From contig NC_092567.1 of assembly GCF_037975245.1 (NCBI RefSeq), positions 21,178,876-21,242,875 on the forward strand: a stretch of 64,000 nt of DNA, given 5' to 3'. Numbering within the stretch: position 1 is the stretch's first letter; each line of letters starts with the position of its first letter. Of this stretch, positions 7,402-64,000 are shown in pieces. The notes beneath the pieces were generated by a model, which saw only the letters and a program-made list of their open reading frames with translations, had not been told where the DNA came from and ran no database searches. Source of the DNA: Apostichopus japonicus. Taxonomy: Eukaryota > Echinodermata > Holothuroidea > Aspidochirotida > Stichopodidae. Position numbers and translations under genes: made by a program.

Positions 7402-8652
7402 CCTTTCGAGGGGAATGATGATTCACACCTGACGATGATCACACAGTCACAGTCCCGATGCAAGGGGACTGGGGTTCGAAGCGGATCAGTCGTTCGGTAG
7501 TTTGGTTTTCGTGCCCAGGTTCTTTCCTGGGCGACTTTTTCTTAAAAAGTATCTTTCAATAAACATTATTAAAGCTGAGAGTCATATAGGGATGGTCGGT
7601 ATGGTATTCTCGATGTTATAATAGCTGATCGTCTTTTTACTCTAATTTTGTCTCTGACGGGCCAAACCTATAGATCGACATTCTTTTCTATCAAGATTTC
7701 ATTCATTTAGTGAATGCATTTCATGGGGAGAATATTATCATTGGGGGCGACTTTAATTTCGTTTTCTAATTTAGATTTGGATAAGCAGCAAGGGTAATCG
7801 TCATACAACTACAAAAGCCTGTCAGGAATGTACTAATACCATGCGATTATTAAGACTGATATCTTTCGAGAGAGAGAAACCCCCTATCTTTTTTTCTGGT
7901 CTGTGCGGAGATCTTTGCGCTGCAGACCGAGGCCCCCTCCATATCAATAGTGTTCGGGGTATCAGTATCTCCAATTGTGATCGAAAATCCTATGCGGTAA
8001 ACAGTACAGTAAACTGAAATGCTGTGTTATAACATTATGTGTGCATGGGTACGGGTTTGTTACGCATACGATTGCCTGTGCTATTCACTGATCTAAATTT
8101 GCCACCGAGGTCACGTGATTAATCGGGGTCCCAGTAAACCTCGCTGAAACCTCGGTAATGCCAGCGCCCTCAAAATAAAGTCTATGAGCGATATCGCCTT
8201 TAAACTTTTGCAGAACGCATATCATGATATCACTCTCTTTATAGATGGAAATGCCGGTTCCCTTAGGGAAGATGTACGTATTCTTGAGGAATTTCATGTC
8301 GTCTAAGATCTGAAGGTTAACTATGATAAATCTAATCTTTTCACATTAGGCCCTTATGTTGATAGTAAGCCCGCTTTCGTCGACGACTTTGCAGTTACCT
8401 GGTCCACGGTGGCCCAGTCAACATGTAAGGAGTTTCTTTCACAACTAATCGCGAGGACCTGTTCTCCTTTTCCGCCCAAGCTTTCTCGCCTTAAGCAGGT
8501 GCTCAATTTGTGGTCCGCTAGGGACCTAAGCCCCCCCCCCCCCCCCCGTTAACAAAAACATCATCGGAAAGACTTTTGCCCTATCCCAACTTTGTTTTCC
8601 TCCCGATTATTTTATTCGTACGAAGATTGTAGAGGACTGGTTAAAAAAAATG

Positions 8653-14257: not shown

Positions 14258-17200
14258 ATATATGCAAATTCGAACATGAAAGTTAAATGTTAGTAACGAG
14301 TGATTAGTCCGTTGTTTTCATACTTTATTTTCGCTTGGCATGTAAAGAAAGTATCGATTGTCCTTTACATCAATGTCTTATCTTGTCTCTTCGTCTTCCG
14401 ACAGGGGTAGCCATGCAGCGTAGAGGGAACTTGCTGTATCCAATGGTCAACGTGACAAACTTTCCACGAATAGGTAATGTTTACTTTTCCGATTCCGTTC
14501 TTTCGTGTACCTTAACACTGACCATATACTTGATCAGCAAGCTAGCATTCTTATCGTTTCCTATATATAAACTTAAAAACTGATTTTTAACTACAACCTT
14601 TTCCCAAATAAATGAAAGAAAAGAAATTATCATGGGAGCAGAAAGCAGTGGGCAAATAAAGACAGACCTGATGTGCAACTCTTTTTATATACGCTTGTCA
14701 GAGGAAAGGCTTGCTCACCTCCCTCGACATTTGAAGAAGAAAAATATGTATCATGTAGGTAGACAAAATGCCGTCCGTCGCATAACGTGCTTTTTGTTTT
14801 CTTTTAAACTTTGATAAACCCCTGGACCAGGATGGAGAGAGAAAATTAACACGAATACTTTACACATACAGTCATGTCCAAGAAAATACATACTTGATAT
14901 AAACTGGTGTTTATTCTCAACATCCATCAATCGAAATGGTATAACCATCGAGCGAAATGATATAACCAGGGAATTGGTCCATAGCAACTCCCTGGTATAA
15001 CCATTAAGCGAAATGGTATAACCATCAAGCGAAATGGTATAACCAGGGAGTTGTTTCATAACATCTCCCTGGTATAACCACCGAGCGAAATGGTATAACC
15101 AGGGAGTTGTTTCATAACATCTCCCTGGTATAACCACCGAGCGAAATGGTATAACCAGGGAGTTGTTTCATAACATCTCCCTGTTATAACCATCAAGCGA
15201 AATGGTATAACCATCAAGCGAAATGGTATAACCATGAAGCAAAATGGTATAACCATCAAGCGAAATAGTATAACCATCAAGCGAAATAGTAAAACCATCA
15301 AGCGAAATGGTGCAATCTTAATCGCTGTGTCAGTTCATGATTCTTTGATATCCCTAATCTAAACTAAGCTGAGCTTCCTTAAATGAACTAACATCTACAT
15401 CTAGTTCTACTTACTATTCCGATTCCATTCTTTTCTGTTCATTGGTCATTTTTCGTTGGTTATAAATGTTATTTTGTTTTATTCGTTATTGCCGTTCTAT
15501 AGTACTACTTATAAATACTGTCCTTGTTGTTTCAAAGATGATTTAGATGAAGAGGAATGCCAAGCCATGATGGATGACGTCATAGTAGCACCAGCCTATT
15601 CCATGCCCCTTACAGCCCTGGCCAGCTTTCCTCGTTCGGGTAACACATGGACGAGATCACTTTTACAAGTAGCGACGGGTTATTCCACTGGAAGTGTGCA
15701 CTGGGAAAGTGAAAGAAACAGACAACGCGTTCAGGAGTGTAAGAAACTTTTCTTGAAAAAATAATTATTCCCGTCTGATCTAGGTAAAGGGGGCATGAAT
15801 CTTAATGGAAGGGTCAGACGCGAATTAAGAATATTATAAGAGAGGTGACGTAGCTTCTAGGTCCCCTCCTCCCCCGTCCCATCGACTTCGCCCCCCTCCT
15901 CCCCCCCCCCGCATCCTTCGGTATATTTAAATCATTAATTAATTCTATAATTAGGTCTAATTGCAAAGTTGAGGTAATAAATATTCTTGATTTTTTTGTA
16001 TGCAGTTGAATGGGGGTTAGGGGTATTTGCCAGCATCTGATGATGCACGACCCCCTGGTCCCCCCCCCCCTCCTTACATGCACGCACGCCATTTGACATT
16101 TTTTAACCATAATCGATGTCTATATAACATTGAAAACCTTTCCGATGACTTATAAATCGAAAAGGAACTTCTAAAGTGATTCGGAAAGCCTAAGTTTTAA
16201 ATTAACCCTTACAATCGACCTTTGGAAAATATGTAAGTTAATAATGATGTTCATATTAGAGCTTCATGTTTCGTTTTTCTTCTTCTTCTTCAGGGTTTCT
16301 AGCTGGTACAGAAGATTATATGCGCCAGACAGGCGTATGTGTCAAAACCCACGAGTTTTCAATTGATCACATTCCTATCTTCAATAACGGTGCAATAATA
16401 TTAATCAGGAATCCATACTACTCCGTGGTTTCCGATTATTTCCGATTCTTTGGCGGTCTGAAGAATATTTCCCGGAACCAGTTGGTGGAATCGATGGAAA
16501 GTAGAAACGGTAAGCCTGTCATGGACTCAGAATATTGAAAATGAAGGAGTGGCTTTGATGTCGTTGGAGCCGACTTCCACTCATTTGGGGTTTGGGGTAC
16601 TCCCCCCCCCCCCACCCACCCCCTTCAAGCAAAAACAAATCAAACTCTAAACGTGAAATGAATGCATTTTGAGGAATATAATTATTTAGGCTATGTGTTA
16701 GGTCTACACGCAAGCTTGTGCTAATAAAGACTGTTAGTTTAGGGGGAGGGGAGGGGAGGGGGAGGGGAAGGGGAGGGGGGTTCGCCCTGTATCTGTGCCT
16801 GATTAATCACGAGCTTAGGTGTCTCTTGGAATCCTCTGGCGGGGGGGGGGGGGGCTAAAGTTCAGTGTGTAGAGCAATTGCTGGAAATTCCCTGCACCTT
16901 TTGGTCAGCATCGCATCTTATCATAGTAGCATTTTTTTTAACTGTTAGGGATACAAATTTATAAAACTTTTGGTAAAATTTTGATAATGCACCTGGCAGC
17001 AGCAGCAGGGTTAGTGACGTCATCACGGTACTTGAGCTGTTTGTTTATTTTAATTTTTGGTAGCTGATTAGTAATGGTCAATTTCTTTCTTGTTTCTTTC
17101 AGATCACTGGACGAAAGTGCTTCTCCCACAATTTCAGAGATGGAAATTGACAAACATTAATTGGATAAACAACTGCAAAAGACTATTAGTCGTCTTTTTT

Positions 17201-17458
17201 GAGGATCTGGAGAGAGATCCTGTTCGTGAATTAACCCGAATGGTTACGTTTCTTGGTCAGCCTCTCTCACCAAGACGAATCATGTGCGCCATATACAACT
17301 TTAGACCAATGGAAGCACATCGCAGTCATATGAACTTTGACCCATACACACCAGAAATGCACGCTATTTTAGACAGTTATATTCAAGAAGTTAATAAAAC
17401 GCTATTACAGAAAGGCGGAAATCCGTTACCTACGTATGAGAAATACGCACTGACATGA
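12964..17458 (+). CDS. WSCD-type sulfotransferase, paralogue 1 (complete)
   Basis: Five coding exons with GT-AG borders: 12964-13165, 14405-14473, 15538-15738, 16294-16509, 17103-17458, giving 347 aa. All four introns are phase 1. Residues about 13-28 form one membrane segment (type II anchor), followed by a variable stalk and a sulfotransferase fold. The 5'-phosphosulfate loop is SFPRSGNTW (120-128); KTHEF follows at 175, and RNPYYSVVSDYF (from 196) fits the 3'-phosphate-binding segment. It most resembles the catalytic part of WSCD1/2 sulfotransferases but has no WSC domains. It should transfer sulfate from PAPS to a glycan in the Golgi; the acceptor is unknown. I chose ATG 12964 because an acceptor (TACGCAG) lies directly before it and paralogue 2 has the same arrangement; an in-frame ATG exists at 12937. 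Confidence 0.88.
14099..14265 (+). repeat. tRNA-derived SINE with (AT)n tail, 5'-truncated
   Basis: Begins at a box-B-like GGTTCGAATCCCGGTGG, continues GAGGCTGGAAG, CACTGTTTTGGATTTTT and ACTCACTACAATATC, then ends in about 95 bp of AT repeat. The same order occurs in reverse at 17470-17690 and as a 3' portion at 22636. It lies in intron 1 of the sulfotransferase. Confidence 0.7.
14935..15310. repeat. Composite minisatellite, 21-bp unit
   Basis: Tandem units of the form AAGCGAAATGGTATAACCATC. They alternate with a longer variant carrying a pair of inverted blocks, AACCAGGGAGTTGTTTCATAA and CATCTCCCTGGTATAACC. It lies in intron 2 of the sulfotransferase. The long minus-strand frames across it reflect a period divisible by three, not a gene. 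Confidence 0.92.
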
Positions 17459-28100: not shown

Positions 28101-28511
28101 TAAAGACTTAAAATATTTGACAATTTTTTTTTTGGTCTAACAGAAAGGTGGACAAAATTTCTACCAACTTACGCTGAAAAGTGGAGAGATACTGCCATAA
28201 ACTGGATCACTCTCTGTGAACGACTGATGATCGTATTCTACGAAGACTTAGAAGAAAATCCAATTCATGAGTTAACGCGTATGGTCAAGTTTCTGGGTCA
28301 ACCAGTACTACCTCGTAGAATACAATGTGCTGTTCATTTTTATGCACCAATGAAAGGACGGCAAGATCATGCTAGTCAAATGACCTTTGACCCATACACA
28401 CCGGAAATGCATGGTATAGTTGATGGATACATAACGGAAGTCAATCGAACACTTTTACAGAAAAATGCTAATCCTCTTCCCGTTTACGAAAAATATTTAT
28501 TATCGTCGTAG
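25182..28511 (+). CDS. WSCD-type sulfotransferase, paralogue 2 (complete)
   Basis: Five coding exons: 25182-25374, 26087-26161, 26682-26870, 27312-27527, 28144-28511, giving 346 aa with the same four phase-1 introns as paralogue 1. ATG 25182 follows a splice acceptor (TTTATCAG) by two bases. Residues about 4-24 form a single membrane anchor. Exon 3 repeats the phrase AYSMPLTALASFPRSGNTW almost exactly, containing the PAPS 5'-phosphosulfate loop. Exon 4 has GVCVKTH and LLLRNPYYSLVSEFMRF (3'-phosphate region). Exon 5 shares LTRMVKFLGQP and MTFDPYTPEMHG with its paralogue. Exon 2 (stalk) is hardly alignable between the two. A Golgi glycan sulfotransferase role is inferred from the family; the substrate is unknown. 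It is a clear tandem duplicate of 12964-17458. Confidence 0.88.
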
Positions 28512-33818: not shown

Positions 33819-36800
33819 GGCGCAATGCCAAAGTGTTTCACAAAACGTTTAGGTGGGTTGCAGGTTTTTTTTCAAGGATTGATATCTACGTCTGATGGGA
33901 CGTACAGTAGGTCAACCCCGCATGAAAGCTGCTAGAATGTGAGCCAGTAAAAATTGTTGTCAGCCTTCAAAGTTTGTGGACCACTTCTTTGCACCATCTG
34001 TGAAATGCAAGAATTTTACTTTTGTTCTTTTCTACAGTCGGTGGGATATACACTGTCCTGCGTTCCAAGGCAGGCGTGACCACTGATGAATTGGGGGACC
34101 AGTACTGCATGCTCGGACCATACAACGAAGCCACAGTCAGGACAGAAGTCGAAGTCTGTGAGCCCGAGAACGAGGTCATCAGGAGAGCCATCAAGAAGAT
34201 GACAGATCAAGGCTTAAAGGTAGAGAGTATAGAATTATGTCAACTTGTCCAGAAAGAATTCTCTTTCACTACACGTGACTAAAGAACGATGAAATACAAG
34301 AGAAAATTACAGGACATGAAATTCACTCTTGTCTTGGTCACACGTCCTTTATAGAATTCTCGATCACCTCTGGTCCATTATAATGGGTCATATCCCTAAT
34401 TAAATCTGTCAGAGAGGTTCAGAATTTTACCGTCCCCCTCCCCCGACCCGCACCATACCTTTCCGATCCTAAAGTGATGTCTTTAATCATCAAATCCAGT
34501 GTTTTTCAAGTTGCTCTGCATATATATATATTTTTTTTGTGGGGACGGGGGTAAAGTCTTGAAGTTCTTCTAGCTTCTGTCTGTGTTAATATTCCAGTTA
34601 CCTATAAGTGTAGCCCTTAAGTGGATACAGAAAAGAGAATTATGCTATCAGCTAATTTAAATAAGTACTAAACTAATTTTCTTTCCTTAAGGTGGTTACT
34701 GGAAAGTGGCTGATCGATGGTTCGCCCAATGTCATCCTCTTTGATATCAGTACCTCCGCGAGGTTTTTGGAAAACTGGAAGAACGAGCTTTGGGATTTAG
34801 CTCACATCGGCATTCCCTGGCACGACAAAGAATCCAATGACGCCACCATCTTTGGAAACCTGTGCACTTGGTTCTTATCGGATGTAAGTTCAGCACGAAT
34901 TAAACATTATTCGAGAAATTCATTACTGTACAGAGTTGGTTAAAGACTTTGAACATCTTAAAAAAATATATATTTAAAAAATGAAAAAGAGAAATTAAAA
35001 AAGGAGAAGAGAAAGGAAAGAAATATACTTCATTTGAGGGAAGGGGTGGGAGTGGGTTGGGGGGGAAGTTGTTGTGTTTAGGGGGAGTTGTAATTCAACA
35101 TGTTGTTCCCTAGATGCAAGTTTAATATCTATCACAAATATTAAGAGAACTCGGGTTATTTACAAATTCATCATTCCAGTAACAAGTAGCTTTGACAGCA
35201 ATTGATATAAAGGTGCTGTCTCTTTTTTTTTGTTCCCCCCCCTCCCCTCTCCCCAATCCAGTTTCGAAGTGTCTTTGAAGAATGGGAATCCCCTTTAATC
35301 ATAGCTCATTTCCATGAATGGCTGTCAGGGATCGGTTTACTCCTATGTCAACTCAAGAGGGTGGATATCTCGACGGTGTTTACAACTCATGCGACTCTGC
35401 TGGGCAGATATCTCTGTGCGGGAAACGTGGATTTTTACAACAACCTTGATAAGGTAATCTTACTCTCCATGAAACAGCTGGTTGTAATTCCATTTTTTTA
35501 TTGTAGTTATAAAAGATTTCAGGATTGGGAAACCTTTAGTATCAACCATCCAAATCTGGTTTGTGGGACATTCAGGATTGTTTGCTGAGAAATTACAATG
35601 CAGAAATATAAAAAAAAACAGCAAAATACACAAAACATGAGAGGTGCTAAGAAAATAATTTAGAAAAATAAATAAAGAGTGAACATCAGTTCAGTGTTGA
35701 ACATTTTATTTTCATTCATTGTTAAGTACCCTTACTGTATGTATCAGGAGTGTGTTGGCAACTTTGCAAACAATGGTGGGAACTTGCATATATAATGAAC
35801 CTTTTTATGGATAATTCAGGAAAGCTTTCCAACCCTGAAATGGCTTATCAAGCCCCAGGCGATAGCTAGTCTAGGATGTTGGGTTTGTGGCCTAACATCT
35901 TTAATTTAATATGATTCAAATTAGACAAAAAAGGGATCAATGACTTTACAAGATACTCAATATTTAAAAATGCAAATAAACTCATCCAAGGCGTATGCGA
36001 TTTATTTCTTAGTTTAATTTGGACAAGGAGGCAGGTGATCGTGGAATATATCACAGATACTGTATCGAGAGGGCAGCCGCCGCTACGGCTCACATCTTCA
36101 CGACGGTCTCCGAAATTACAGCCGACGAGAGCGAACATCTACTTAAAAGGAGGCCAGGTAAAAATTATAGAACTCACTAGTTGTATTTATACTAAGTAAG
36201 TACTTAGTATAAATCATTTCAGGCAGTGATTCTTCTGTTTTGAATTCCTCTGTCGGTTTGACATTTTTCCGACTTTAGCCGGTCCACAAACCCCCGGCCT
36301 CTCCCACCCCCCTCTCCCACCCTCTCACCAAGAACTAGAGAGAAACATTATTTGGAGCAGAGATCCACACAATTGTTATACTCATTATACCAAGATTGGG
36401 CAGTATGTAAATTAGGTCGGTACAGTGCTCAAACCTAAGGCCTTAAAGGCCCACATACCCGAACAAAGTTAGCTTGCTGGCCAATTTTTCTGTTATGGGC
36501 CAAATGAAACTCTCTCATTTGTTGGATCTTGGCAGGGGGGTGGGGGGTGGGGTGGGCGCTTGTAGGGAACCACTGGTATAGATGAGAGAGCCATGATTTA
36601 GAGATCAAAAGTGTTGGCAATATTAGACAAAATGAAAGAAAGTCATGTCTGAAAGATGGTAAAATTGTTAAACCCAACAAAGCAATATGGACATGGGCAT
36701 AAAATGCGAACATTTCTTTTTACAAAAAGTTGGAATAATCTACTAAAGATGATGAATTTATGAGTGACAATTTTTGTGTATGATTACATTTGTCCAAACC

Positions 36801-48961: not shown

Positions 48962-49981
48962 CTACTCCAGGATAGGAGTTTTCTCCTCAGTGTCTTGTGC
49001 CAGGAGTTCTTCTTCCTTCTCCTCGTCTTGAGCTGCAACTTGTTCTCTGTGTCGAGACATCGTGACGCCGACACATGACACCATAATGAGAGCTGATCCT
49101 ATACCAATGGTCCAGTGGAATGGAAAAGTGAAGAAGATGTATTGTCCCGCGTAGGCAAACACAACATGGAGGGTGAGAATCACCGAAACGGTGACTGGAC
49201 TCTCGAACGAGACGGCAAGGTAATGCAAGGCCATCCCACAAAGGCTTATCAGACCAGTCGCTGAAAGCGCAATGATGGTCTCCGTTTGACGCGGGATTCG
49301 CCATGCGTTTAATACGGTACACAGGGTAATAGAGACTACAGAATACTGTGATGAATACGACAATACAGTAACAATTGTATCTGTCTCTAACTCGGCTAAT
49401 TTCCTCCCGGCAAAGAGCGCTCCGGAGAAGGCCATAGCTCCGATGATTCCGCAGACGACACCTACGACTTTCACGAAGAAACGTCGTTGAAGGTATTCGT
49501 CTTCTTCTTCGCCAGTAACGAACGATGGTCTGGACACGAGAACTACTCCAACGAAGGACAAAATAGTGAACATAAAATTGATCTTCATGCATCTCTGACC
49601 GACGCAGAGAACGTCAAATAGAGTAGCAAAGATTGGCATCGTGAAGAAAATGGCGACTGCGTTGCCTGGACCAAGAATGACAATGGCGATTGTGATGGTG
49701 ATCTGTGTGATGCAGCTGAGCATGCCATGAAGTAGCACAAGTACGAAGTGAACACCAGACGAAAGGAAATTGAGTCTCGGCTTCAAAACCGCAAAGAAGA
49801 AGAAGGCGGATATCAAAAAAGCGATGACAGAATTGAAGACGAATATCAAAGCTGGGTGAGTAACTTCGGAGGTACTGTAGAGAAGCATGTCCTCGCAGCC
49901 GAATGAGAGAGCACATAACACCGCACAGGAGATCCCCATGAGTGGGGAAAGATGTGTCGCTGTGTTTCGTAAGCATTCCAT
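48962..49981 (-). CDS. SLC35G-like EamA/DMT-family membrane transporter
   Basis: An uninterrupted 339-aa frame on the minus strand. It contains about ten hydrophobic helices in two EamA-like halves, beginning MGISCAVLCALSFGCEDMLL and ending in an acidic, probably cytoplasmic, tail (EEKEEELLAQDTEEKTPILE). Length and topology fit SLC35G/TMEM20-type members of the drug/metabolite transporter superfamily. In mammals SLC35G1 is an ER and plasma-membrane protein linked to STIM1; whether that applies here is unknown, and so is the substrate. The coding part is a single exon; non-coding exons could lie upstream. A damaged partial copy lies inverted at 51590-52835. Shorter open frames on the same strand are frame shadows. 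Confidence 0.88.
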   Translation of the reverse strand: MECLRNTATHLSPLMGISCAVLCALSFGCEDMLLYSTSEVTHPALIFVFNSVIAFLISAFFFFAVLKPRLNFLSSGVHFVLVLLHGMLSCITQITITIAIVILGPGNAVAIFFTMPIFATLFDVLCVGQRCMKINFMFTILSFVGVVLVSRPSFVTGEEEDEYLQRRFFVKVVGVVCGIIGAMAFSGALFAGRKLAELETDTIVTVLSYSSQYSVVSITLCTVLNAWRIPRQTETIIALSATGLISLCGMALHYLAVSFESPVTVSVILTLHVVFAYAGQYIFFTFPFHWTIGIGSALIMVSCVGVTMSRHREQVAAQDEEKEEELLAQDTEEKTPILE

Positions 49982-51589
49982 CGTAGATCATTCCGTTCAG
50001 CCACTTGGTAAGTAAATACACCAATAACAGTTTTGTCACATTACTTGCATGTTTAATATTGCATAAAGCCTACGATGAAAAGAACAATCATATATACAAC
50101 GATGTAATTAAATTTTTATTGCGCAGTTATAAAGCATGGTTGGTAGAAATTATATATAATTAGTCTGTTATAGCCATGCATGCGTTATACATGCAGAATA
50201 AACAATAGTCTTGAACGAACAAACCCTCTCTCTTGTAAAGAAATTACGTGCAATGCCACACATTTGTATAGGCACCAATGAATCAATATTTAAGCTAGTA
50301 ACTATTTGGAAAAATGATTTGTGAGGGTGGCTCCTTGGCGGTAACTTTGTAAAAAAAATAAGTAAGATTTGTTTTTTGTAATAGAAAAGGATGACAAAAA
50401 ACCGACATTGCCCTTGGTGGTTCCGTTGAGTAGGTGAAAGGTTAGAAGAAGTCAGCAAACGTTTAGGGTTGAGGGCGGGTTGCCGAAGTGATAGTAGAAG
50501 GACTCCTTCAAAAAAATACTAGAGAGAGGTGGGTCATCTTTAAAGGCATTGCAGACTCGCCCCAAACCGCGTTCCGCGCTCTGAAAAAGTTAACTTTCTG
50601 TTGCTTGCAAGTGAAGTTTTCTTCTTATCGCTACGAAATGTAGACAGGAATGAAACGTGATACCTTGTTATCTTTTATCTAGACCTGAGATGTCCACGCT
50701 GCTATGTACACTGTGTTGTGGGTATTGACCGTAGCTGTATGTATTGACTGTACACTAGTGCTGAATTACCCACGGTAGCAAGCTGTGTGTGTATTTTCTG
50801 GGATCGATGGTGGTGCCTTACACTTCTATTACACCTCATTCGAAACTAGGTAAGATTACCGGCATGAGACGTTTCTTTGTGCGCGAGTCTTCACACCATT
50901 TAAGCAAACAGAAAGCGAACAAGAGAGAGAATAAAGGGGTGTAGTCGAACGACCATGGAAATACGTTAATTTAAAGTCTTCTTAACTGTCATATTGCTTA
51001 CAGCACACCGCTGCCACCACCTGCCATAGGTTCGAATCGTTATACTACACCGCTGTGTGGGTCATTGTGGAACACGAACACTCCGATATATATTGCCACT
51101 GAGTGACACGAAACGTTCGATCATCTTACAGGAATTAACTCAGTTGTGGCAGAAGATTTTGTACTCTACGACGTTGGTAAGTATTTCCATCCAACCTTTT
51201 GTTTTCTCTGAAATTCCGTGGTATCCGAGTCATTTAATATGTCTATGCATGGTGATTGCTGTGGCTTCAAAACGTCAATAGCGGCCCGAGTACTATCTCC
51301 AGTTAGCCTAATTAGTCATCCTTCACTGGCATCGTTAATTGTGTGTCACAAATTGGTATTTCATTCGCGATATTCAGCATAGGGCCTGGCAATGGCGTAT
51401 AGCTCTCTTTGTTAGTCTCACACGTTTTTCATTAATTTTTAGCGTATACTATTTCTGAGAAGTAAACCTCAGATTAAAGACTTGTTCTTTGTGATTTATT
51501 GTTCGATGGGCGGAGTATTTTTTAATAACTATGACACTTGAGGATAAAGAGATAACCGGAAAAGTGTTTAGCCTGTTTATTCCGGCCGC
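49982..51589. other. Spacer between transporter gene and its damaged copy
   Basis: Probably contains the promoter and 5' UTR of the transporter. A GTTCGAATCG word near 51030 looks like a box B but has no tRNA partner. No further gene supported. Confidence 0.4.
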
Positions 51590-51798
51590 GTATACGGTAT
51601 CATCGCAGCCATCGCGGCAGCCGTGGCGTTCTCCTAATCTCTTATAGTTGGAAAAATTCTATTGTTAATGTGCTTTCTTATTCATGTCAGTATTCACTGA
51701 TGTCTCTCATTTTGTGCTCCTTTGTGATCCTTATGTGGTGGATGGTCTCTACCAAACACACCCAAAGAAGTCATCTTACTCTCAGCAACGGGCGTGAC

Positions 51799-52727
51799 CT
51801 TGGGCGGCGATCATGGGGGGGGGGCATGTCCTCCCCCCAATATTTTAGGTTGGGAAATAGTATCTAATATCCCCAATATCTGGTGGCATAATTTTGTTTT
51901 TGGTGGCTATAAATAGAAAATAATGCGTGAGATCATTTATCCAAATCCTATTTGGCGGTGGCTAAAACTGCATCCAGCACATGCTGTATGAGGTTAATGA
52001 CTCTTCGTGGTCGTTTCTGTGACCTGTGACCGTATAGCAAGTTGTCACTCATGATTATGATCATAATGTCTGTACATCTCTTGTGTATGAGTGTAAGTAC
52101 GTACAATCATATATATGATCCTCATCGATATGGGTTAATTAGGTTTCCATTTGGCCTGTTTCCTACAAGATTTCTAACCTGAGCAGGCGCGTAACCAAGG
52201 GGGGGGGGGGGGGTGGGCGAAGAGGGCGACCCCTTGAGCATATTTTTTTGTAGTTGTTTTATGATATCGCTAGTAATATCAAAATAGAAAATAGATGCAA
52301 CTTACAAGGCCTGGGAAGTGCCATTTCCAGCGATCTGGGAGACATTTTCGGGCAAAAGTTTCTTCTACGCTTCGCGCCAATTCATGGTGGCGCTACGCCA
52401 AGATAGTTTGCCTAATACATTCGCCCCTCCTTTGGCAAATTCCTCGCTACGCGCCTGTCTGACCGTGTCATAATTTGTTGCTAAATATCACCAAAAACGT
52501 CACAGACTTTCACCGAAAGTAGTTTTTACTTTTTTTCGAAATAAATTAGCTAGACGGACCGCATCCGTAGTGAAATTTGGTTTGCCGATAATGAAGGAAA
52601 TAAGGCTGTAGCAACCAACCAGTAACCATCACGAAGCGCGCGAACAATTTTGGGGATGAAAGTTGCTACGCGCCTGCACCAAGCAAATGCCCCCCCCCCC
52701 AATATTTGAAACAAATCGCCGCCCCTG
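51799..52727. mobile_element. hAT-type element inserted in the transporter pseudogene
   Basis: Left end CTTGGGCGGCGAT; right end, read in reverse, CAGGGGCGGCGAT, the CAGGGGCGGC class of hAT termini. Flanks GGCGTGAC (51791-51798) and GGCGGGAC (52728-52735) are an 8-bp target duplication with one mismatch. Removing the element and one copy restores the alignment between the pseudogene and the intact gene, which confirms both ends. G- or C-runs sit just inside each end. It has no transposase, so it is non-autonomous. Confidence 0.88.
52184..52457. mobile_element. Nested MITE-like repeat with CAGGCGCGTA ends
   Basis: CAGGCGCGTAACCAAGG at the left and CCTCGCTACGCGCCTG at the right are inverted repeats. 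A third, similar inverted end, TTGCTACGCGCCTG, lies at about 52663-52676. This suggests one MITE inside the hAT element plus a second partial copy, or variable use of ends. No clear target duplication was found. Confidence 0.55.
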
Positions 52728-52849
52728 GGCGGGACTATTTTTGGTGGGATGGTATTTGGATACTTAGCCGTATGCCAGGAAAAACCTACCACAATCTCTG
52801 TCATATTAACATCGGAAGTTGTGATGTACATCTACATTAAAAGTGAACA

Positions 52850-52970
52850 GCGCCGTCAGCATCAAAGGAGACATGTGCAGCACCAAAGTAGACAACAAAA
52901 TAAAAGGAAACAACAACATCAAAGGAGACAACAAAATCAAAAGAGACAACAGCATTATAACAGACATCAT
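52850..52970 (+). repeat. Short ACAACAxAATCAAAGGAG tandem repeat
   Basis: About five imperfect units of roughly 18 bp (GGAGACAACAAAATCAAA and variants) directly after the transporter pseudogene. They produce a Q/R-rich open frame by composition only. Confidence 0.7.
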
Positions 52971-53159
52971 AGAAGTAAAGTATATAAACATCACACTATA
53001 TGACAAACTTATAAAAAGATTTGAATAGTGCAAAATTTACTCGTTTACATTCGCTGTGAAATTCTCGGCATTGTAAACTGACAGTTTACACGGATCTCTC
53101 AAATACACCAAGTAAAGCTTTCCACGAGACTGACAGAGCACCATACAGCAAATACCCAG

Positions 53160-54300
53160 TAAACATTTTGACGTCGGATCGACGTTGGGTTTGGGTCGCG
53201 TGAAATGGTCGGACCGACGTCTCCCACGTTTCCGTTTGCAAAGTGGGGCAACGTCGATTCGACGTCGATTCAGACGTCCAATATTCGTTGGTCCGACGTT
53301 TGGCCGACTCTTCGGTATACCGTTCAAACGACGTTCATTGGACGTCTTTCCAACAATTAATGTCGACGTCAATTCGACGTCGATGAAACCGTCCAAAATT
53401 CGTTGGTCCGACCTTTTGCCGACTCTTTGGTATACCTTTCAAACGACGTTCATTTGACGTCTTTCCAACATTTAATGTCGACGTCGAATCGACGTCGATG
53501 AAACCGTCCAATATTCGTTGGTCCGACGTTTGGCCGACTCTTCGGTATACCGTTCAAACGACGTTCATTGGAAGTTTTGCCAACATTTAATGTCGACGTT
53601 GATTTGACGTCGATGAAACCGTCCATTAATCGTTGGTCCGACGTTTGGCCGACTCTTCGGTATACAGTTAAAACGACGTACATTGGACGTCTTTCCAACA
53701 ATTAATGTCGACGTCGAATCGACGTCGATGAAACCGTCCAATAATCGTAGGTCCGACGTTTGGTCGACTCTTCGGTATACGTTGAAACGACGTTAACTGG
53801 ACGTCTTCCCAACATTCAATGTCGACGTCGAAACGACGTCGATAAAACCGTCCAATAATCGTCGGTCCGACGTTTGGCCGACTCTACGTTATACCGTTCA
53901 AACGACGTTCATTTCACGTCTTTCCAACATTTAATGTCGACGTCGAATCGACGTCGATGAAACCGTCCACAATTCGTTGGTCCGACCTTTGGCCGACTCT
54001 TTGGTATACCTTTCAAACGACGTTCATTTGACGTCTTTCCAACATTTAATGTCGACATCGAATCGACGTCGATGAAACCGTCCAATATTCGTTGGTCCGA
54101 CGTTTGGCCGACTCTTCGGTATACCGTTCAAACGACGTTCATTGGACGTTTTTCCAACATTTAATGTCGACGTTGATTTGACGTCGATGAAACCGTCCAT
54201 TATTCGTTGGTCCGACGTTTGGCCGTCTCTTCGATATACCAAACGACGTTAAGTGGACGTCTTTGTAACACATCATTTTAACGTCGGATTGACTCTGGCT
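53160..54300. repeat. 115-bp satellite rich in GACGTC palindromes
   Basis: About nine head-to-tail units. Successive GTCGAC landmarks at 53362, 53477, 53592, 53707, 53821, 53936, 54051 and 54166 are 114-115 bp apart. Each unit contains GACGTCGAATCGACGTC, itself a palindrome, plus CCGTCCAATATTCGTTGG and TTTGGCCGACTCTTCGGTAT. It is CpG- and ACGT-rich against AT-rich surroundings. Both borders carry a shared phrase (ATTTTGACGTCGG and ATTTTAACGTCGG). The several minus-strand frames across it are repeat artefacts. Confidence 0.93.
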
Positions 54301-57010
54301 TGGTTTATAGTTTACTAACAATGTATGGTAAGTTTGTTTTAAATCGAAAAATGAAAAACATGAGTTGATTGAAATATTTCGTTTTAAAAGAAAACGGCCC
54401 TTTTATATTTGATTTCAATAATATGATAAAGTCACAAGAAAAGTCTACTATAAAGTTAATAGAGGTAAAATGCGCTACATAGCACAGACTATATGTTACT
54501 ACAGCTGCATGTTTATTAAAAGGCAATGGAAGTTGTTGACTGTTGTTCCCAACTTGTCAACATAAACCGTTGTGGTAAAAAGGAGCGCTCTACATGTACA
54601 TTGTCGTACGAGTTACACCCCACCGCCGATGAAATGCCATATGTTAAAGTCCCATTCATAGTTTCCTTATGAATTTCAGAAAACAAACTTCCGAATTAGA
54701 TTCCAACGTTTCTTAACCTAAATACACTCTGACCAGGTGGGTTTTATGGAGAAAAGCTGTCGCAATCGAAAGAAAGAAAAAAAAAAAATTCTGTCGCCCT
54801 TATGGCGGTAACGATTTACCGTAATATCACTGCAACCGCCTACGGTTCATTACACAAATGTAAAGAAAATAGTCCATGCAGTCCTATTGGTATCGCATTT
54901 TACAAGTAGAATAGGTTTGACACCGCTAGGTCACGGTACTAATCTCCCACCAAAATATGCCTTCTCGCATTCACTACACTAGAGGTAGGGAAAATCCCGA
55001 AAACACTCGAGAAGTACAAAAAGGAAAATTACCAACAAAATAAAACAATCTAAAAAATAAATATTGAAAGCCACGAGCATTTTCCCATAACAGCAATCCA
55101 AAACAAGTAGTGATTGCCTAGTCTGTAATACAACTGAAATTTCGAAATATAAATATTTTTACATCAGTTCTGGAGTCGTTACTAGACACGTAGATTGGAA
55201 ATGTCGGTGCCTTTGTGCATATACCACATTCTGTCTATCTACAAGATGTAAGGTCATTAACCTCGTTGCACTTTTGACATTCCCTTGGTTCCCACAATCC
55301 CTTAAAAAGAAAAACATAAGAAATTGCTTGACCCGCTATTTCAGACGTCTAGTCAATTCAGAAAAAAACAATAAAAAGATAAACAGCACGTGACGTTTCT
55401 TTCTCACTCTTGGTTGGTCCTTTCAATGACAGATTTGATGAATTAGGTAACATTGAACCAATGAGTGACCAGATGCCCGAACATGAGTGAGCCCAAGAGT
55501 TGTTATTTCAGAGGCATGTCAGTAGGGAAAAGTTAGTCGAAACAATCGCTCTTAGCTAGTGATCGTTGTTTGCGGACGTACAGGCTATTTAAGTAAACAT
55601 GGTTTCTTATCAGTATCTTGAAGTAACTTAACAACGCTAATTGGACTTTAATTTAGAGACGAGAGAGGTAATCTTATAATCAACGGAATATTTAACTCAT
55701 TTACTTGAGCAAGGGCGAGAAATCGAGATACCAGTTATACCGAGCTCACAAGGCGTCGTCACACTCGTAGCAGTAAACCGCCTCATAACACTTGTATCGT
55801 GCTACCAAAAACACGGAATGAGCAGTATCGATAGAGTTGATAGGTAAGAACATATTTATCCCATCAGTTGTTTAATTATCATGTTACTCGTTCTCAGTTG
55901 CTTAGTCAATTACTGCAGAGTAGAAATAAGATACCGAATTGATCATGCCCTGGATAACACTACAGTCTGTACAGGAAGGGCATATGCCGTGGACCTATCA
56001 AGTATCAACCGATGTTTTCAATAGCAGTTGGTATATAGTTGCAGTACAATATTTGTATATACTATTTTTATTTGTAGCATATTTGGCTAATGCCTGAATC
56101 CCAACACCCTCTAACTTAGATTAAAGTTCAGGCCGGGATTTCCTTTGTAAGAATTTTTTTTTTTTTTGTAAAGTCGGTCTGCGTATCGACCAGCATGTAG
56201 CAGTGCTAATTTTAAAGGTATGCAGTATTTCCGCGAATTATGCCAGAAATTTAAATATGGTCACCTTTGGTCATAATTCTTAAATTGTTTTTATTACCGC
56301 CTTCGAAGAAATTTACCCCACTGAGAAATTCTTTCGTCTTGGGTGTTCATTAAGAAAATGTCCGAGAACAATTTGGAGAATAACGACCTCCAGGAAAATA
56401 CTTTTTGAAAATGTCTAGCAATTATAAAGTGCTATAATTTGGGGCCTATGCAGACTACTTTTAAACTGGGGGTGGTAACTTGATAATAGTCACCAAAAGT
56501 ATGGTGGGATAAGAAAATTGCCAGAATGGCTTCTGGTCACTACCAATCTTATATAATAACTCACCATTTTGTATTTAAGCACTCTTAATTTGTAAGAAAA
56601 AAAGTAGCACCATCCTCTGGGAAAGGCACTGGAGGAACCAGGAAGCAAACAGAATACCACCAGGCTCCAGCATGTAGTTTATATGTCATGCAGGCACTTT
56701 GGGCTGATATGAGGCTAAGGACTACTTTGAATTGTAATAAAATATCTTTCACTAGGAGAATGGAATTGCATTTGATGCAAGGATGTAGACCCTGCAAGAT
56801 TTTTTTACTGATTACTTTTACTGCTATAGTCTTCAAAATGTGTTAGAAGACTATAATATAGCCATTACTATTTACAAGGCATGTTAAGTGAAAGGAACAG
56901 TTTAATGACAGTTCAAAAGTATCACACTAAAGTTAAACAATGGGAAAGCAGTCTTGATATTGATAATGGAAAGATGATCTAGGCTTATGTTGAATTTAAA
57001 GTATTTGACT
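54301..57010. other. Spacer between satellite and DUF4806 gene
   Basis: No gene recognised. It probably includes the 3' UTR of the DUF4806 gene and may include the left terminal region of the CACTA-like element, but I could not find a CACTA-type end or a target duplication here. Confidence 0.4.
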
Positions 57011-60000
57011 TTAATCAAGCTGACAATCTGGCTGTTGTGCCTGCCTGTCCTTGCGGGCACCAGTCCGGTCTGCAGCATGTTTTAGCCATAATTTAATGAC
57101 TGCTTCCACCTGTGACTGGGTTGCTGTTTTTGTCAAAGGGTTTCTTGAGATGGCCCCTAGGGACAATAGGAAAAAACGAAGAGCAATTATAAGTATAATC
57201 ACATGAATAAACCAAGAGAAAATGTAATCTAATGACTGACCGCATGGCTTAATTGATATTATGTTGTTTATTTCAGGCAAGTCTCATCCCAAATGATTGG
57301 AGGGCATTGATGATACTTATCAACTTGGTCCAATTTTACTGCTCTGCTCAGCGCTTTGCAAAGATGAGTACATTATCTTATATGAATTACAGTCACACAT
57401 TGCAGTCTGACAAAACCATTAAATCTACACAAAGTTGCTTGATGGTTAAAATATGGGCCTTGGCCTTTTGGGAAAGATGTATACAATGCATAATGTTTGT
57501 GTGTAGTTCAGTGTGAAGCTTTTCTACATGTAACATGATGCATCATTGAAGCACTGTTAGTTTGTCACAGTATATATACCATTTGAACAACTGGGACGAT
57601 TTTATTTTTTTTATTATAGGCATTTGTATACTTACTAAAAATCAAATCTTTCAGAAGAAGGGTAGAAAAGGCTTTCTTTTCGGCACTCCCCCTGCCTAAC
57701 CAGTTGAATTTTGTGGCCAAGGCACTGCTCATTAGGAATGATAAAATCCTTCTCACACTACTATCCAAGTTGGTCCCACCTATCATAGACAGCTTCTGGA
57801 CCTATATAAGGAGGTGATTGCGAAAAAAAAAATGAAATTTATTAAGGAACAAAGTTTATGTTATCCAGTTGTAATAAGTTATGAATTGTTTACTTGTTAT
57901 TTACCACCACACTACTATTAGTATTACATTAGTTGTAATTAATTTATTTTCTAAAAATATGTATTTCGTAAACATTACTACAAGAAGTATAATTAAAAAG
58001 TAATATATTTCAAAATGTATGTAGTTAACAGAGATACAATTTTTTCAAAAAAATAATGCAAATATATCTCAGATAGAGGTATGACTTATGACATACCACG
58101 TATGACAGGAGTGGGGTCACTGGGTGCATAAGTATCTAAGAGTTTGGCAAGATTGTTTAAAACTGTAAGACTCCTACCACTCCCAGTTGAAAAAAAAGTA
58201 GTGCAATTTTTAAAGCAATATGCAATTATAAGGCTCATAGAGCAAATTTTAAACTGTGCCATCTACACTTATAACTTGGGTTGAAATATGAGACTTATAG
58301 ACCACATAGCATCATATGTCTATTTAATATGGCTGTGAAAAGGTTTTCATTAAGTTTATATTACAAATTGATGGAGCACGAAATTACAGCAAGTTACATT
58401 TAGTCTAAAACTCAATCATAGAACGCTTACACTACTGGTTTCTTTAAAAACGTGCAATCAAAAACACACAAAAAACATTTCTTACCAGTTTTTTCCTTGA
58501 TCCTGTGTCATTTTTAAGTTTTTCCTCCAAAGAAGTTATACCTTCAAGGGACTTTAGAGGAAATTCATTTAGCCAATCGTCTTCTTCACTCTCTGGTAGG
58601 ACGTTTGCCTCAGTCAGTGTTTTTAGCAGCAACTTGTTGTGCTGAACCTCCGCCTTAATCTCCGTCAGCATCGAGATTACCCTTTTTTCAAAATCTAATA
58701 AAAGTTAACAACAACAAAATAAACTTAGTTACATTCCTATAAACTCCATATGTCATAGTAAAACTGTGTTCCCTTAAAAATTATACTGTACATTAGGTCT
58801 TTCATTTTTTGTTGTTGCATATTTAGCATCAATTTAATAATAAATAACAATTCACAAGAATATAAATAAATAATATTAAATAGTAACAAATATTACTTTG
58901 TCTTCATACCTTAGCATTTTTGGTTTCGATGATAATCGTAACATTTGCAATCATGCGTGTGTGTGTGTGCGTTTGTGACGCCCAGCTTGTAAACACGATA
59001 TCTCAAGAAGGGAAGCTTGGACAGTTCTCATATTTGGTACATAGGAGTACCTTATTGAGTACAAGAAGCCTATTGTTTTTGGTGTAGGTCAGAGGTCATT
59101 TAAGGTCACCAGGGGTCAAATAGTGAGAAGCTTGTAAACATGATATCTCAAGAAGCAAAGCTTGGATTGATTTCATATTTGGTATGTAGGTTGACCACAT
59201 TAAGTACAAAAAGCCTATCGTTATTGGTGGATGTCGAAGGTCATTTAGGGTCACCAGGGGTCAACTTGTAAAAACCTTTTCATAATATAGGTATCTCCCA
59301 TCGTCCAGCCTATAAGTAGATGACATGGGCGATTCGCCTCATAAGAATAGGAGAGCCTATTGACAATTGAAAATGATCTTACGGGCATCCGTAGATTTGA
59401 ATCCGAACTCGCGACAATATCCCCATTGACTTAAGTGTGTCGCTAGAAGTCCTGAATTACTATGTACATAGCTACATACATGTGTGTGTGTGTGTAAAAC
59501 AGTGTCTTCCAAGGCTTGCTTGCAGACCATAGATATATAAAAGTGCTAGAGCTACTGCAACACTTGTCACTCATCCGTATGGATATTTTGCTAAAAAGTT
59601 GATGTGATTTTGATGGAATAGTGCATTTGAATGGCGAAGCATGCCTTCTCTAGAAAATATTTGTAGATCATTGGTAGTTCTGGTTGGATGTAAGTTGCAC
59701 AGGTACCACGAATTTCAAAACATTTCTTGGCCAGATGCCATGAAGAAACTAGGTCAAGCACCTGTGAACTTGAGATTTGTTTTCACTTCATGGAGTTGGC
59801 TGTAATGTTGGCCTAGTTTTTCTCAACTTGTGAAACTACCATTGACAGGTTCCAACAAGGTTGATATTTTGGGACTAGTTGTGAATGGGGTAAGGGATTG
59901 TTTCAAAACATAACAGTCATGTGATCCAATGTCAACAAAGGTCAATCAGGGGTCAAAAACTAGTATTTTTGCAATAACTTGAGAACCAAATGTCCATCAA

Positions 60001-61659
60001 GGTTGGGAGTTACGCTATTGTAATACAATAGTCGACCTGCATTTGGGTGACCTTTGACCTCAGGTTGACCTCCAGTGCCCTGTGTTAGCTTCTTTCAAGT
60101 TGATTCTTTCAAGTTTCGTGGGCATATTCCAATCTAAATTGCCCATAAGTGGACTCCTCTGCAACCTTAATGTGCAAAGTTATTAGCGATTTGGTTTGGT
60201 TTGTAATACTTGGTGTGCGGATTCATAACATTGAGTACAAGAACCCTACTGTTTTTGATGGAGGTGTGTATAACCACGTACAGACTGACCTGTGTTAGCA
60301 TGCCATAGTGTTATTGTAACAGCTAGTTCTGGTTATATACTAACAAGCAGAAGTCTAGTGCATTGAAGTCATCGAAACCTCAATGCATTTTGCATTCTGG
60401 TTTTAATTGAAACAATTCAAACATGTGTCAATTGCTTTAATTTAATGAAGCTGAAAATTCTGTAAATCAATAGAGCTAATGTACAATGCTTGCAAATAAT
60501 TGAAAAGAGTTAAAAGAAAATTACCAGGGCAATGGAAAGAAGAGGCTGCACTATTGTCCAAAGTTTGGTTGGGGAAGCAAGGTGGGGTTGGAGAGCGTGG
60601 TGGGGCAGGAGATAGAGCAAGCGGAGTTACAGGTGTTGAAGTTGATGGAAATGATGGTGGTCTGGGTCGCTTTGGTGAGGCAGGAAACTCCTCATCACTC
60701 GAGCTTTCAACCATATAACGTTGATTAGGTCTGCAATAAAATAAAAAAATAAAATAAAAATTAAATTACCATAATACAATAATGATAACCTAAAATCTAT
60801 CTTACTTTGACCACTTTTACGCTAACAAATCACCCTCCCACCCCAGTTGAAAAGAGAAACTTGGTGATAATTATACTTTGGTGCTTCACTGCTTGTATAC
60901 ATGTGTGACTCTATCAGTCTTTTTGCTGTGTTGGGACTTACTTTCGTTTTCTTCCTATGGTTACTTCCTCATCTCCTGTCTGCAGGTCTGACTCATCTTC
61001 AGCCTGCCTTAGTTTGGAAACTGCCTTGTCATATGAATCTGTATGGAATAATATAAAATATGCCCCATGTATTTGAATACCTTTACTTTGAATTTGTGAA
61101 GTTACATTTTTATTTTATTCCTTGGTAAATTGAAAAATATCAGGAAACAGTTGGATAACCCAGCCAAAATGAGAAGGATAAACAAAGGGCATGAGACAGG
61201 GTGGGGGGAGGGGGTCCTTATAGATTAGGTAACCACTGGACAGAGCACTTGTGAGTTCATAGCCCATCGTGGTGAAACAGTGCGTTCAATGGTAGTTACT
61301 GCATTAATTTATTACTGTTCTCCAACATTTCATCTCAAACTTCTGGGCTGGGCTGTGTAGCATATTAGCAACAAGTATTAAAACCAGTACTTAGAAATGG
61401 GGGCAAATAGAGAGTATGAAGACACACCCTTCAATTATATTTAACATAATTTTTACTTACTTGTTGCATATAGTTTTCTTATTTTAAAAGCCTTCCAACT
61501 TGTCTCGGGCTCTGTGGTAGTCTTCAGAGCCTTTGCCAAACTTCCTGAAGATTTGAAGGGGGGCCACAAACAAGTACCCTCAGAAACCATCCATTTCTCA
61601 TTGATGATGGCTATCTCCTTAGAGTCCGTAAACTCCACAATGTGATACAATGGGTCCAT
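57011..61659 (-). CDS. DUF4806 domain protein, six exons (complete)
   Basis: Minus-strand exons 61659-61461, 61038-60942, 60730-60525, 58694-58486, 57801-57636 and 57156-57011 join through GT-AG sites in consistent phase to 340 aa plus stop. Residues 1-66 (MDPLYHIVEF..., CLWPPFKSSG..., ETSWKAFKIRKLYA) form the small N-terminal module usual in animal DUF4806 proteins. Residues 67-167 are acidic, then S/P/T-rich and probably disordered (SSSDEEFPASPKRPRP). About 168-195 is a possible coiled coil (DFEKRVISMLTEIKAEV). Residues 200-325 fit DUF4806: FPLKSLEGITSLEEKL, SVRRILSFLMSSALATKFNW, VEAVIKLWLKHAADR. Biochemical function is unknown. ATG 61659 lies just after the transposase stop, so it may be an accessory protein of the same transposon. 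Intron 3 (1.8 kb) is full of repeats. Confidence 0.82.
58960..60280 (-). repeat. Tandem repeat family with AGGTCA half-sites, in DUF4806 intron 3
   Basis: Units of about 120 bp share GATATCTCAAGAAG, AAGCTTGGA, TTGAGTACAAGAAGCCTA and a closing block AGGTCATTTAAGGTCACCAGG followed by GGTCA. Two good copies lie at 58985-59265 and further decayed pieces near 59930-60270. The closing block strings together AGGTCA half-sites at 1-bp and 4-bp spacing. Confidence 0.7.
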
Positions 61660-61802
61660 GCTAAGATTGAGTAATATAATTTTTCTAATTTATGTTAAAG
61701 TGATGATCATATATGTAAGTAAATGAAGTGTTAAAATGTATTTAACATTAAACTTAAACTAACAGTAACTGGCCTCAAGTCTCCTTAATATAAACTTGCT
61801 CT

Positions 61803-63878
61803 TTAATGAAGGATAGGCATAGCAATGAACCAATTTCTATGCGGTAAAAGTACATATTTTTTGAAAATTTCCCTCGAATGTGATACCTGTAGATTTTCAC
61901 TTATACTGTCAACTTGTAAAATTCCTATACACTTTGATTCACAAGGATAGCTAAAATAATTTTCCTTGTGAGTGAATGATCGATAAACCACATACAAATC
62001 ATCATTGGTAACAAAAAAGTTTTGCACTAGGCACACATCATTCCCTATTTGAACACAATTGTCCCCAGTGCAAAGAGTTATATGGACATTCAAATCTTTG
62101 TGATAAAAGTAGGCATACTGTGACATAGCTAAATGTCCTTCTGGCACTGGCCCATTTGAATGTTCTTGTTTGAGGATAGTGCACTCATTGTTCTTCATGC
62201 TTTTCTGAATTTCCCCCTTTCTCAACAGATGCCCAACTACTTGCCGCAGTGGCAGTGATGGCTTTTTCACCATTTTCTTCAATGTGCCCAAATAACTTTC
62301 AAATGGAAATGCAGAAACATTATCTAGTGGACCATATTTACGTGCATCATCAGCAAGATGAAGCAAACAATGTACATTGTACACTACCATTTCCTTGCCA
62401 TACAATTTGGAGAAATGTGCAACAAACAGTTTTAATAATTCTTCAGAATAATCAATCAATGATGATTGGTTACAAAGCCTTGGTGACAACAGAATTTGAA
62501 CTGCAACGGAAAGCAGCATGAAGTTGTGGTAAAGGTTCACTGGTATTTGGCTAGAAAGGGCTAATGGACCAGTGTAGACTAAGAATTGACGGAACTCCGT
62601 AGCCTTCCATCTATCAACTTCTCGGAGTGATCTAGGTTTTCTTGAAAACTCTCTTGGCATGAACTCTCTAAGTGAAATCATCTTCTCAGAAATTGCATTG
62701 ATCACTCTGGTTGGCATTCTAGTTTTGAGCGGACCTTTCATCCACAAACCCAGCAGTTTACGAGTAACACCCAGACACACCAGATGCATATAATCTAATG
62801 GAAATTGGGAAACTAATCCTATAGAAGTAGATGAAAATGGAGATTGTTCAAGGTGGTGATCTTCGTCAAGCATTTGTTGGAAACTTTCGTCAGTTCTTAA
62901 ACTATCTGCACTTTCTTTGTACACCATTTTTCCCATCCAAGTTCCAGTTTGTATGCACCGATCACAGCCTTTGTAGGAGGAATGCCCTTTTACACGCTTT
63001 ATTAAGGCACGAGCCGGGGCATCACAAATAACAGCAGATATTGAAAATTGGTATTTTGCCCCACAATGCTCAATACCATGTTCTTCGAGACTTGTAACCT
63101 CGTCAATTAATGGTTTTAAGAATTCATTAACTGGAGATGGTTTCGACATTCCAGAAAATATTCCAATTGGAAATGGTGTACTGTCAAAAATTTGATCAGT
63201 GATCCCCAAAATTGGCCAGAACTGCATATTTGAACTGCGAAACAGGGGTAGACCATCAATGTTAATTTTAATTGAGATAGATTCTTTACATGGCTGTGAT
63301 AACTGCATTTGTGATTTAATGTAGTTAGCAATGCCAAAGTGATAGTACTTGCCCCCTGCTATGTTTTCAAAAGAAATGTCTTTAATGGGCTTTAGAAGTG
63401 ATCTTGGATCCTTTGGCAAATCTATGTGGTATGGTTTTAAAATGTTTAACAAACTAGATACTGCTGTTTGTGATATGTTGTTTGATGTAGCCCATTCCCC
63501 CAACTGATCAGAGAGGCTCATTTCATCAACATCTGACTGGCTACTAGAACATTGTGAAAGCTCTTCAAATTCACTTTCAGAATTACTACTAGGCCTGTGG
63601 GTAACTCCAGGATTGTTTAATGTATTGTTGAAGAGGTGTTTGCTTTCAGAAGGCCTAGTGCTAAGCCTAACATTGTCATGGCCTGTTTGTGATACTGTGG
63701 GGCTAGAAGTAAAATTTAGTGCAGTATTTGTGACTGGAATGTCTAAGTTGCTGGGCTCTTGAATCTGTTTAGGAACTTTACTCTTATCTATTTTGAGATA
63801 GGGGTGGTGCTTTAGTTGAAATTGTACATTACGTCTTATTTTCCAATACGATATTGGTTTTACAATAAGCCATAGCAA
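61803..63878 (-). CDS. CACTA/EnSpm (Tnp2-like) transposase, N-terminus unresolved
   Basis: A 691-codon uninterrupted frame. Upstream it stays open to a stop at 63909-63911 with no ATG; the first codon at 63878 is TTG. The true start is therefore probably in an upstream exon, with a possible acceptor near 63835-63850. Recognisable blocks, numbered from 63878: INIDGLPLFRSSNMQFWPIL (about 206-224) with a candidate catalytic D208; CDAPARALIKRVKGH (285-299) followed by a C-x2-C pair (C305, C308) as in Tnp2 proteins; FPLDYMHLVCLGVTRKLL (359-376); and FPFESYLGTLKKMV (524-537), which could supply the acidic E. The order and wording match animal proteins annotated as transposase-domain (Tnp2/DUF4218-like) proteins. 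The acidic, Ser-rich N-terminal third is probably disordered. The family would cut and paste the element in the nucleus. Confidence 0.78.
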   Translation of the reverse strand: MLWLIVKPISYWKIRRNVQFQLKHHPYLKIDKSKVPKQIQEPSNLDIPVTNTALNFTSSPTVSQTGHDNVRLSTRPSESKHLFNNTLNNPGVTHRPSSNSESEFEELSQCSSSQSDVDEMSLSDQLGEWATSNNISQTAVSSLLNILKPYHIDLPKDPRSLLKPIKDISFENIAGGKYYHFGIANYIKSQMQLSQPCKESISIKINIDGLPLFRSSNMQFWPILGITDQIFDSTPFPIGIFSGMSKPSPVNEFLKPLIDEVTSLEEHGIEHCGAKYQFSISAVICDAPARALIKRVKGHSSYKGCDRCIQTGTWMGKMVYKESADSLRTDESFQQMLDEDHHLEQSPFSSTSIGLVSQFPLDYMHLVCLGVTRKLLGLWMKGPLKTRMPTRVINAISEKMISLREFMPREFSRKPRSLREVDRWKATEFRQFLVYTGPLALSSQIPVNLYHNFMLLSVAVQILLSPRLCNQSSLIDYSEELLKLFVAHFSKLYGKEMVVYNVHCLLHLADDARKYGPLDNVSAFPFESYLGTLKKMVKKPSLPLRQVVGHLLRKGEIQKSMKNNECTILKQEHSNGPVPEGHLAMSQYAYFYHKDLNVHITLCTGDNCVQIGNDVCLVQNFFVTNDDLYVVYRSFTHKENYFSYPCESKCIGILQVDSISENLQVSHSREIFKKYVLLPHRNWFIAMPILH

Positions 63879-64000
63879 AGAAGAAATGTTGAAAATTCGA
63901 GACTTAAGCTACGGGCAGTTGTGCTCAACTGGCCTAAAATATCCTCTTAGTCTCAGAGGGAACTATATTCAGTATTCAAGACAGGTGTGGGGATTTTGTC

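Follow-up and report, generated by a model that had tools for sequence, protein, structure and literature searches.

Does a gene of the orphan animal domain family DUF4806 belong to the transposon whose transposase is encoded directly upstream of it? The question is raised by a stretch of 64,000 nucleotides from the holothuroid Apostichopus japonicus (assembly GCF_037975245.1, contig NC_092567.1, positions 21,178,876 to 21,242,875 of the forward strand; hereafter the window, numbered from 1). At its right end two genes follow one another on the minus strand: a transposase reading frame (63908-61803), then a DUF4806 gene (61659-57011). Both are open, and their order and spacing, the motifs of the transposase, and the DUF4806 domain assignment are direct observations. 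We lean towards the view that DUF4806 is here the second gene of the same CACTA/EnSpm-type element, in the position of TNPA. An initial annotation of this DNA had already proposed an animal CACTA element with two genes. The CMC-type transposase motifs, the adjacent intact DUF4806 gene, and the precedent of the element SmTRC1 speak for this proposal, but within the window we found neither terminal repeats nor a target duplication around the pair, and the pair has no second copy there.

The transposase reading frame

The frame and its motifs are given below. Here and throughout, statements on published systems refer to the accessible parts of the cited papers.

61803..63908, minus strand: CACTA/EnSpm (CMC)-type transposase, a 701-codon stop-free frame with a natural stop at its end
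63246..63263, minus strand: NIDGLP motif (residues 216-221), putative first catalytic D (our own assignment)
63012..63026, minus strand: CDAPA motif (residues 295-299), putative second catalytic D (our own assignment)
62955..62966, minus strand: CDRC (residues 315-318), which is the C(2)C motif that PMC12730594 defines for the CMC/CMCT clade
62781-62792, minus strand: YMHL, with a further H (residue 375), from our reading of the motifs
62358..62375, minus strand: VHCLLH (residues 512-517), the H(3)H motif as defined in PMC12730594
62286..62303, minus strand: FESYLG (residues 536-541), putative catalytic E (our own assignment)

The 701-codon frame is very probably coding, because the longest stop-free frame among 60 simulated sequences of 64 kilobases (kb) each, generated by a first-order Markov model built on the window, had only 254 codons (mean of the longest frames, 150). 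It had been described as uninterrupted; the reading frame is indeed open throughout, but the start of the gene is outside the view. Methionine occurs in frame for the first time at residue 130 (63521), and a stop lies in frame ahead of 63908. Because this methionine comes so late, the 5' part of the gene is probably beyond the window, in one or more exons past 64000; otherwise, translation would begin at residue 130.

The assignment of the frame to a family rests on one Pfam domain and on the motifs. The domain DUF4218 (PF13960) is matched slightly above its cut-off (E=1e-6, 29 bits versus 27), whereas Transposase_21, the tnp2 domain (PF02992), stays below its own (E=0.11, 12.1 bits versus 28.6), and so does DUF1258 (PF06869, E=0.0097). 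The label of a Tnp2-type transposase rests on the DUF4218 match and the motifs, the Transposase_21 match itself being sub-threshold. In plant CACTA elements, DUF4218 occurs alongside Transposase_21 in ORF1 (PMC8978399). The EnSpm/CMC (CMCT) clade is characterised by C(2)C and H(3-4)H motifs and by three acidic, two cysteine, and three histidine residues (PMC12730594). In our frame, the motif residues (D, D, E, C(2)C, H(3)H) follow one another in the order expected for this clade; the two D and the E were placed by the order and context of their motifs, without alignment to relatives.

The transposase had no match in PHROGs, and no relatives of it were found among viral contigs and genome contigs, collections of viral and prokaryotic sequences that are uninformative on animals. 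A degenerate motif pattern run against the same viral and genome contigs and a second pattern run against the viral contigs gave no hits either. The search of Protein Data Bank (PDB) sequences returned three matches, one of them a spermine oxidase (E=0.0059, residues 41-185), which we set aside by judgement as it covers a stretch that looks Ser-rich by eye. For the core of the transposase (436 residues), AlphaFold2 run on the single sequence gave a model too poor to be used (mean predicted local distance difference test score 34.4, predicted template modelling score 0.24).

The DUF4806 gene and the gap before it

Downstream of the transposase stop, the features on the minus strand are the following, the exons being those of a splice reconstruction made from the sequence alone and, for exons 4 to 6, also of the Pfam match.

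61660..61802, minus strand: intergenic gap of 143 base pairs (bp), read from the sequence
61461..61659, minus strand: exon 1, with the ATG at 61659
60942..61038, minus strand: exon 2
60525..60730, minus strand: exon 3, Ser/Pro-rich, with the basic stretch PKRPRP noted by eye
58486..58694, minus strand: exon 4, in which the DUF4806 match begins and which has other in-frame donors
57636..57801, minus strand: exon 5
57011..57156, minus strand: exon 6, stop codon included

The predicted gene (61659-57011) has six exons joined over five GT-AG introns and encodes 340 amino acids. It had been said to splice cleanly over six exons. The chain is open over its whole length, but it is not unique: 120 of the 3240 donor and acceptor sets tried are open for at least 200 codons, and the eight longest products (340 to 346 amino acids) differ around exons 4-6. 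The exon 4 donor at 58486 was picked by eye as consensus-like. The spliced protein matches DUF4806 (PF16064) with E=6.6e-11 and 42.8 bits, versus a cut-off of 25, over positions 6-88 of the 90 in the profile. Two basic stretches, GRKRK, which straddles the junction of exons 2 and 3, and PKRPRP, resemble nuclear localisation signals by eye. DUF4806 has been termed a subtype of the BEN DNA-binding domain in PMC11075544, citing Pan et al. 2023. If it truly is one, the protein encoded here would be a nuclear DNA-binding protein. A weak similarity to the XamI family of restriction endonucleases (residues 217-319, E=0.00092) is below the cut-off, overlaps the DUF4806 match, and is probably due to chance. 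The viral contigs, uninformative on animals as above, contained no relatives of the spliced protein.

Within the longest intron of the gene (60524-58695) are two tandem copies of a 145-bp repeat (58984-59278, 81% alike over 150 bp), in which AGGTCA-like runs can be seen by eye, and a related piece of 36 bp lies at 60230-60265.

The spacing of the two genes was as first described: from the transposase stop to the ATG of DUF4806 there are 143 bp (61802-61660), on one strand. On the minus strand, this gap contains no AATAAA, and its single ATTAAA overlaps the transposase stop. A shared transcript for the two genes is possible on this sequence. One form of it, a sub-case of the two-gene element, is a single long, alternatively spliced unit, in which a leader exon ahead of the transposase would join the AG at 61662-61661 to produce the DUF4806 messenger RNA, in the manner of tnpA of En/Spm. 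That AG directly precedes the DUF4806 ATG, the transposase frame probably requires an upstream exon regardless, and SmTRC1 is alternatively spliced (PMC1636069). Against this, the pyrimidine content before the AG is ordinary (0.62, equalled by 18% of the 402 AGs scanned), compared with 0.69 to 0.88 for the five inferred acceptors of the DUF4806 gene. We regard such a unit as a serious possibility, though one that we would sooner doubt than assume.

One element or two neighbours

If the two genes do belong together, the region would hold the 3' portion of an animal DNA transposon of the CACTA/EnSpm type (CMC) with two tandem genes. The DDE transposase would be responsible for cutting and joining the element ends, and the DUF4806 protein, in a position like that of TNPA in En/Spm, would bind the element ends or the promoter, where it may help the transposition complex to assemble or control expression. 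The closest published parallel to this plan comes from Schistosoma mansoni, in the element SmTRC1 (DeMarco et al. 2006, PMC1636069), for which one complementary DNA clone contains two tandem open reading frames that its authors liken to TNPD and TNPA of maize Spm. As in our locus, a CACTA-related animal transposase (of Transposase_21 type in SmTRC1) is followed in tandem by a spliced second frame, and this plan speaks for the two-gene element proposed here. Related animal TRC elements are reported from sea urchin, Ciona, zebrafish, and Aedes (PMC1636069). The two systems also differ: the second protein of SmTRC1 (PrA) was assigned to no family, and elements of its type have ends beginning with CCC and 2-bp flanking repeats, which we did not see in the window.

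The presence of DUF4218 within the transposase frame is shared with plant CACTA elements (TNPA/TNPD of En/Spm; Jozin of Chenopodium; PMC8978399). The accessory protein of the plant elements is not described as a DUF4806 protein in the accessible text of that paper, and ends and subterminal repeats of the plant kind were not found in the window. A DDE transposase with a separate, element-borne second protein is also known from Kolobok0 (KolX; PMC9587614) and Nuwa (Myb/SANT; PMC12730594), although these belong to other superfamilies and their second proteins are classified differently.

The search for the ends of the element was made within the window, and the right end probably lies beyond it, since the start of the transposase is itself probably out of view. 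The initial annotation expected ends starting with CACT. A search for these alone would be too narrow, because the ends described so far for animal relatives, three in number (in S. mansoni, Tribolium, and Aedes), begin with CCC and are flanked by 2-bp repeats (PMC1636069). The candidate CACT and CCC starts listed in the window gave nothing convincing, nor did the 25 longest of 65 inverted-repeat pairs in 56000-64000 or a similar search of 55200-57200. We then compared 14-mers between 50100-57013 and 63100-64000, allowing at most 2 mismatches with the first three bases equal. This gave 20 pairs, versus 27, 28, and 13 in three mononucleotide shuffles, and none of the 20 begins with CAC, CCC, or CAG. 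The sole pair with one mismatch (in two registers, 52645-52646), whose partner site falls inside the transposase frame, was set aside. Exact 9- to 12-mers in at least three copies within 55001-57013 were absent except for poly(A).

Several observations weigh against a two-gene element. Terminal inverted repeats, a target duplication, and subterminal repeats were not seen in the window. The case comes from a single locus: no second copy of either protein exists within the 64 kb, where the only other matches are at chance level (E=0.88 and 0.81). The DUF4806 protein does not match the Pfam BEN domain at E up to 1, and its PDB sequence search returned two matches (best E=0.73) and no convincing relative. 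Three AATAAA signals in intron 1 of the DUF4806 gene would allow a separate end for the transposase transcript. SmTRC1 resembles plant CACTA proteins in Transposase_21 only, the rest not being detectably conserved, so that its second protein may be unrelated (PMC1636069). Finally, the association of DUF4806 with DUF4218 is not obligatory, because in three cnidarians DUF4218 is accompanied by a single DUF4806 or by none: 12 versus 1 in Morbakka, 4 versus 0 in Nematostella, and 5 versus 0 in Acropora (PMC7642931). The full counts in that study for Hydra viridissima, H. vulgaris, Clytia, Aurelia, Morbakka, Nematostella, and Acropora, in this order, are 69, 54, 6, 0, 1, 0, and 0 for DUF4806 and 47, 13, 16, 0, 12, 4, and 5 for DUF4218, where the column order is that of the header of the DUF4218 part of the table and is assumed to be the same for the DUF4806 part.

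Some of these points would be expected if a CACTA-type transposon had landed by chance upstream of a resident host gene of the multi-copy DUF4806 family, the two being unrelated neighbours. The family is multi-copy in several animals (PMC7642931), with four genes in one region of zebrafish (PMC11075544); the DUF4218 and DUF4806 counts do not covary across the cnidarians; and our searches around the genes turned up no ends of an element. Yet a chance insertion would seldom yield the same strand, the transposase-first order, and the gap of 143 bp, all three of which are predicted by a two-gene element. It would also have to fit the 3' sequence of the element and a terminal repeat into those 143 bp, which would be short for that. 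On this evidence we consider a chance insertion unlikely.

That no terminal repeats are visible in the window also fits a domesticated or immobile remnant, in which an element that captured or carried DUF4806 has lost its terminal repeats and left two host genes. Both frames are open with the motif residues retained, and domestication was raised by DeMarco et al. for animal relatives without recognisable ends (PMC1636069). The retained catalytic-motif residues, however, fit an active or recently active transposase equally well, and the right end is outside the sequence examined. Such a remnant seems to us improbable. The two-gene element, with both genes within its bounds and a DUF4806 protein that would bind DNA at the element ends or promoter, is the account that we prefer.

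The surrounding window and DUF4806 in other animals

Leftwards of the locus, the closest host gene that we recognise encodes an EamA-type transporter, in a single long open reading frame at 48962-49987 on the minus strand (Pfam). Ten open reading frames were profiled near the locus; seven of them lie wholly within 50-57 kb, and none of these seven reaches a Pfam cut-off. One of the seven, the compositionally biased frame at 52710-53003, has eight sub-threshold Pfam matches. A tandem array of about nine 115-bp units (alternatively, 459-bp units) occupies 53251-54264, mostly within the most G+C-rich 2-kb bin of the window.

Farther away, 10 of the 27 open reading frames of at least 115 amino acids in the window were profiled. 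Two on the plus strand (17075-17458 and 28104-28511) match pieces of Sulfotransfer_1 (PF00685) just over the cut-off, which suggests two sulfotransferase genes or pieces of such genes, and a piece at 35211-35588 (plus strand) matches glycogen synthase (PF05693, E=1.8e-27). Together with the spliced DUF4806 gene, these matches agree with DNA from the nucleus of an animal. An Rfam match to the U2 small nuclear RNA at 7357-7433 (48.7 bits versus a gathering threshold of 46) covers 77 bp, compared with the 192 positions of the model, and is perhaps a shortened U2 pseudogene. Repeats at 1576-2545 and 3127-3502 consist of 48 copies of a 20-bp unit and 94 copies of the tetranucleotide GTAT, respectively.

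Our literature search found no link between DUF4806 and a CACTA transposase, a weak result, as most subscription papers and Repbase are outside its coverage. Both DUF4806 and DUF4218 are counted in PMC7642931 and are not linked in its accessible text. By its domain match, the gene described here joins a family (DUF4806, PF16064) with members on zebrafish chromosome 4 and in Hydra, Anopheles, and an ambrosia beetle. In three of these four reports the genes are multi-copy or enriched; in the beetle, DUF4806 is named with DUF5641 among the enriched domains (PMC13270666). In the parts of these sources that are accessible, none of them is described beside a CACTA transposase. The expansions of DUF4806 in Hydra suit a mobile gene and, with the enrichment in the beetle, speak for the two-gene element. 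As a broader and tentative proposal, which we think more likely wrong than right, DUF4806 genes across animals would be, or descend from, the accessory gene in the TNPA position of animal CACTA/EnSpm transposons; they would hence encode BEN-type DNA-binding proteins that have spread, and have locally been domesticated, with these elements.

If the two genes do not belong together, the locus is an ordinary animal CACTA transposase next to a multi-copy gene. If they do, DUF4806, an orphan animal domain family, would gain a context that bears on its function, and animal CACTA elements, like En/Spm, could be seen to provide their transposase with a separate partner protein that probably binds DNA. 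The lineage-specific expansions of DUF4806, in Hydra and on zebrafish chromosome 4, would then be a testable record of the spread or domestication of transposons.

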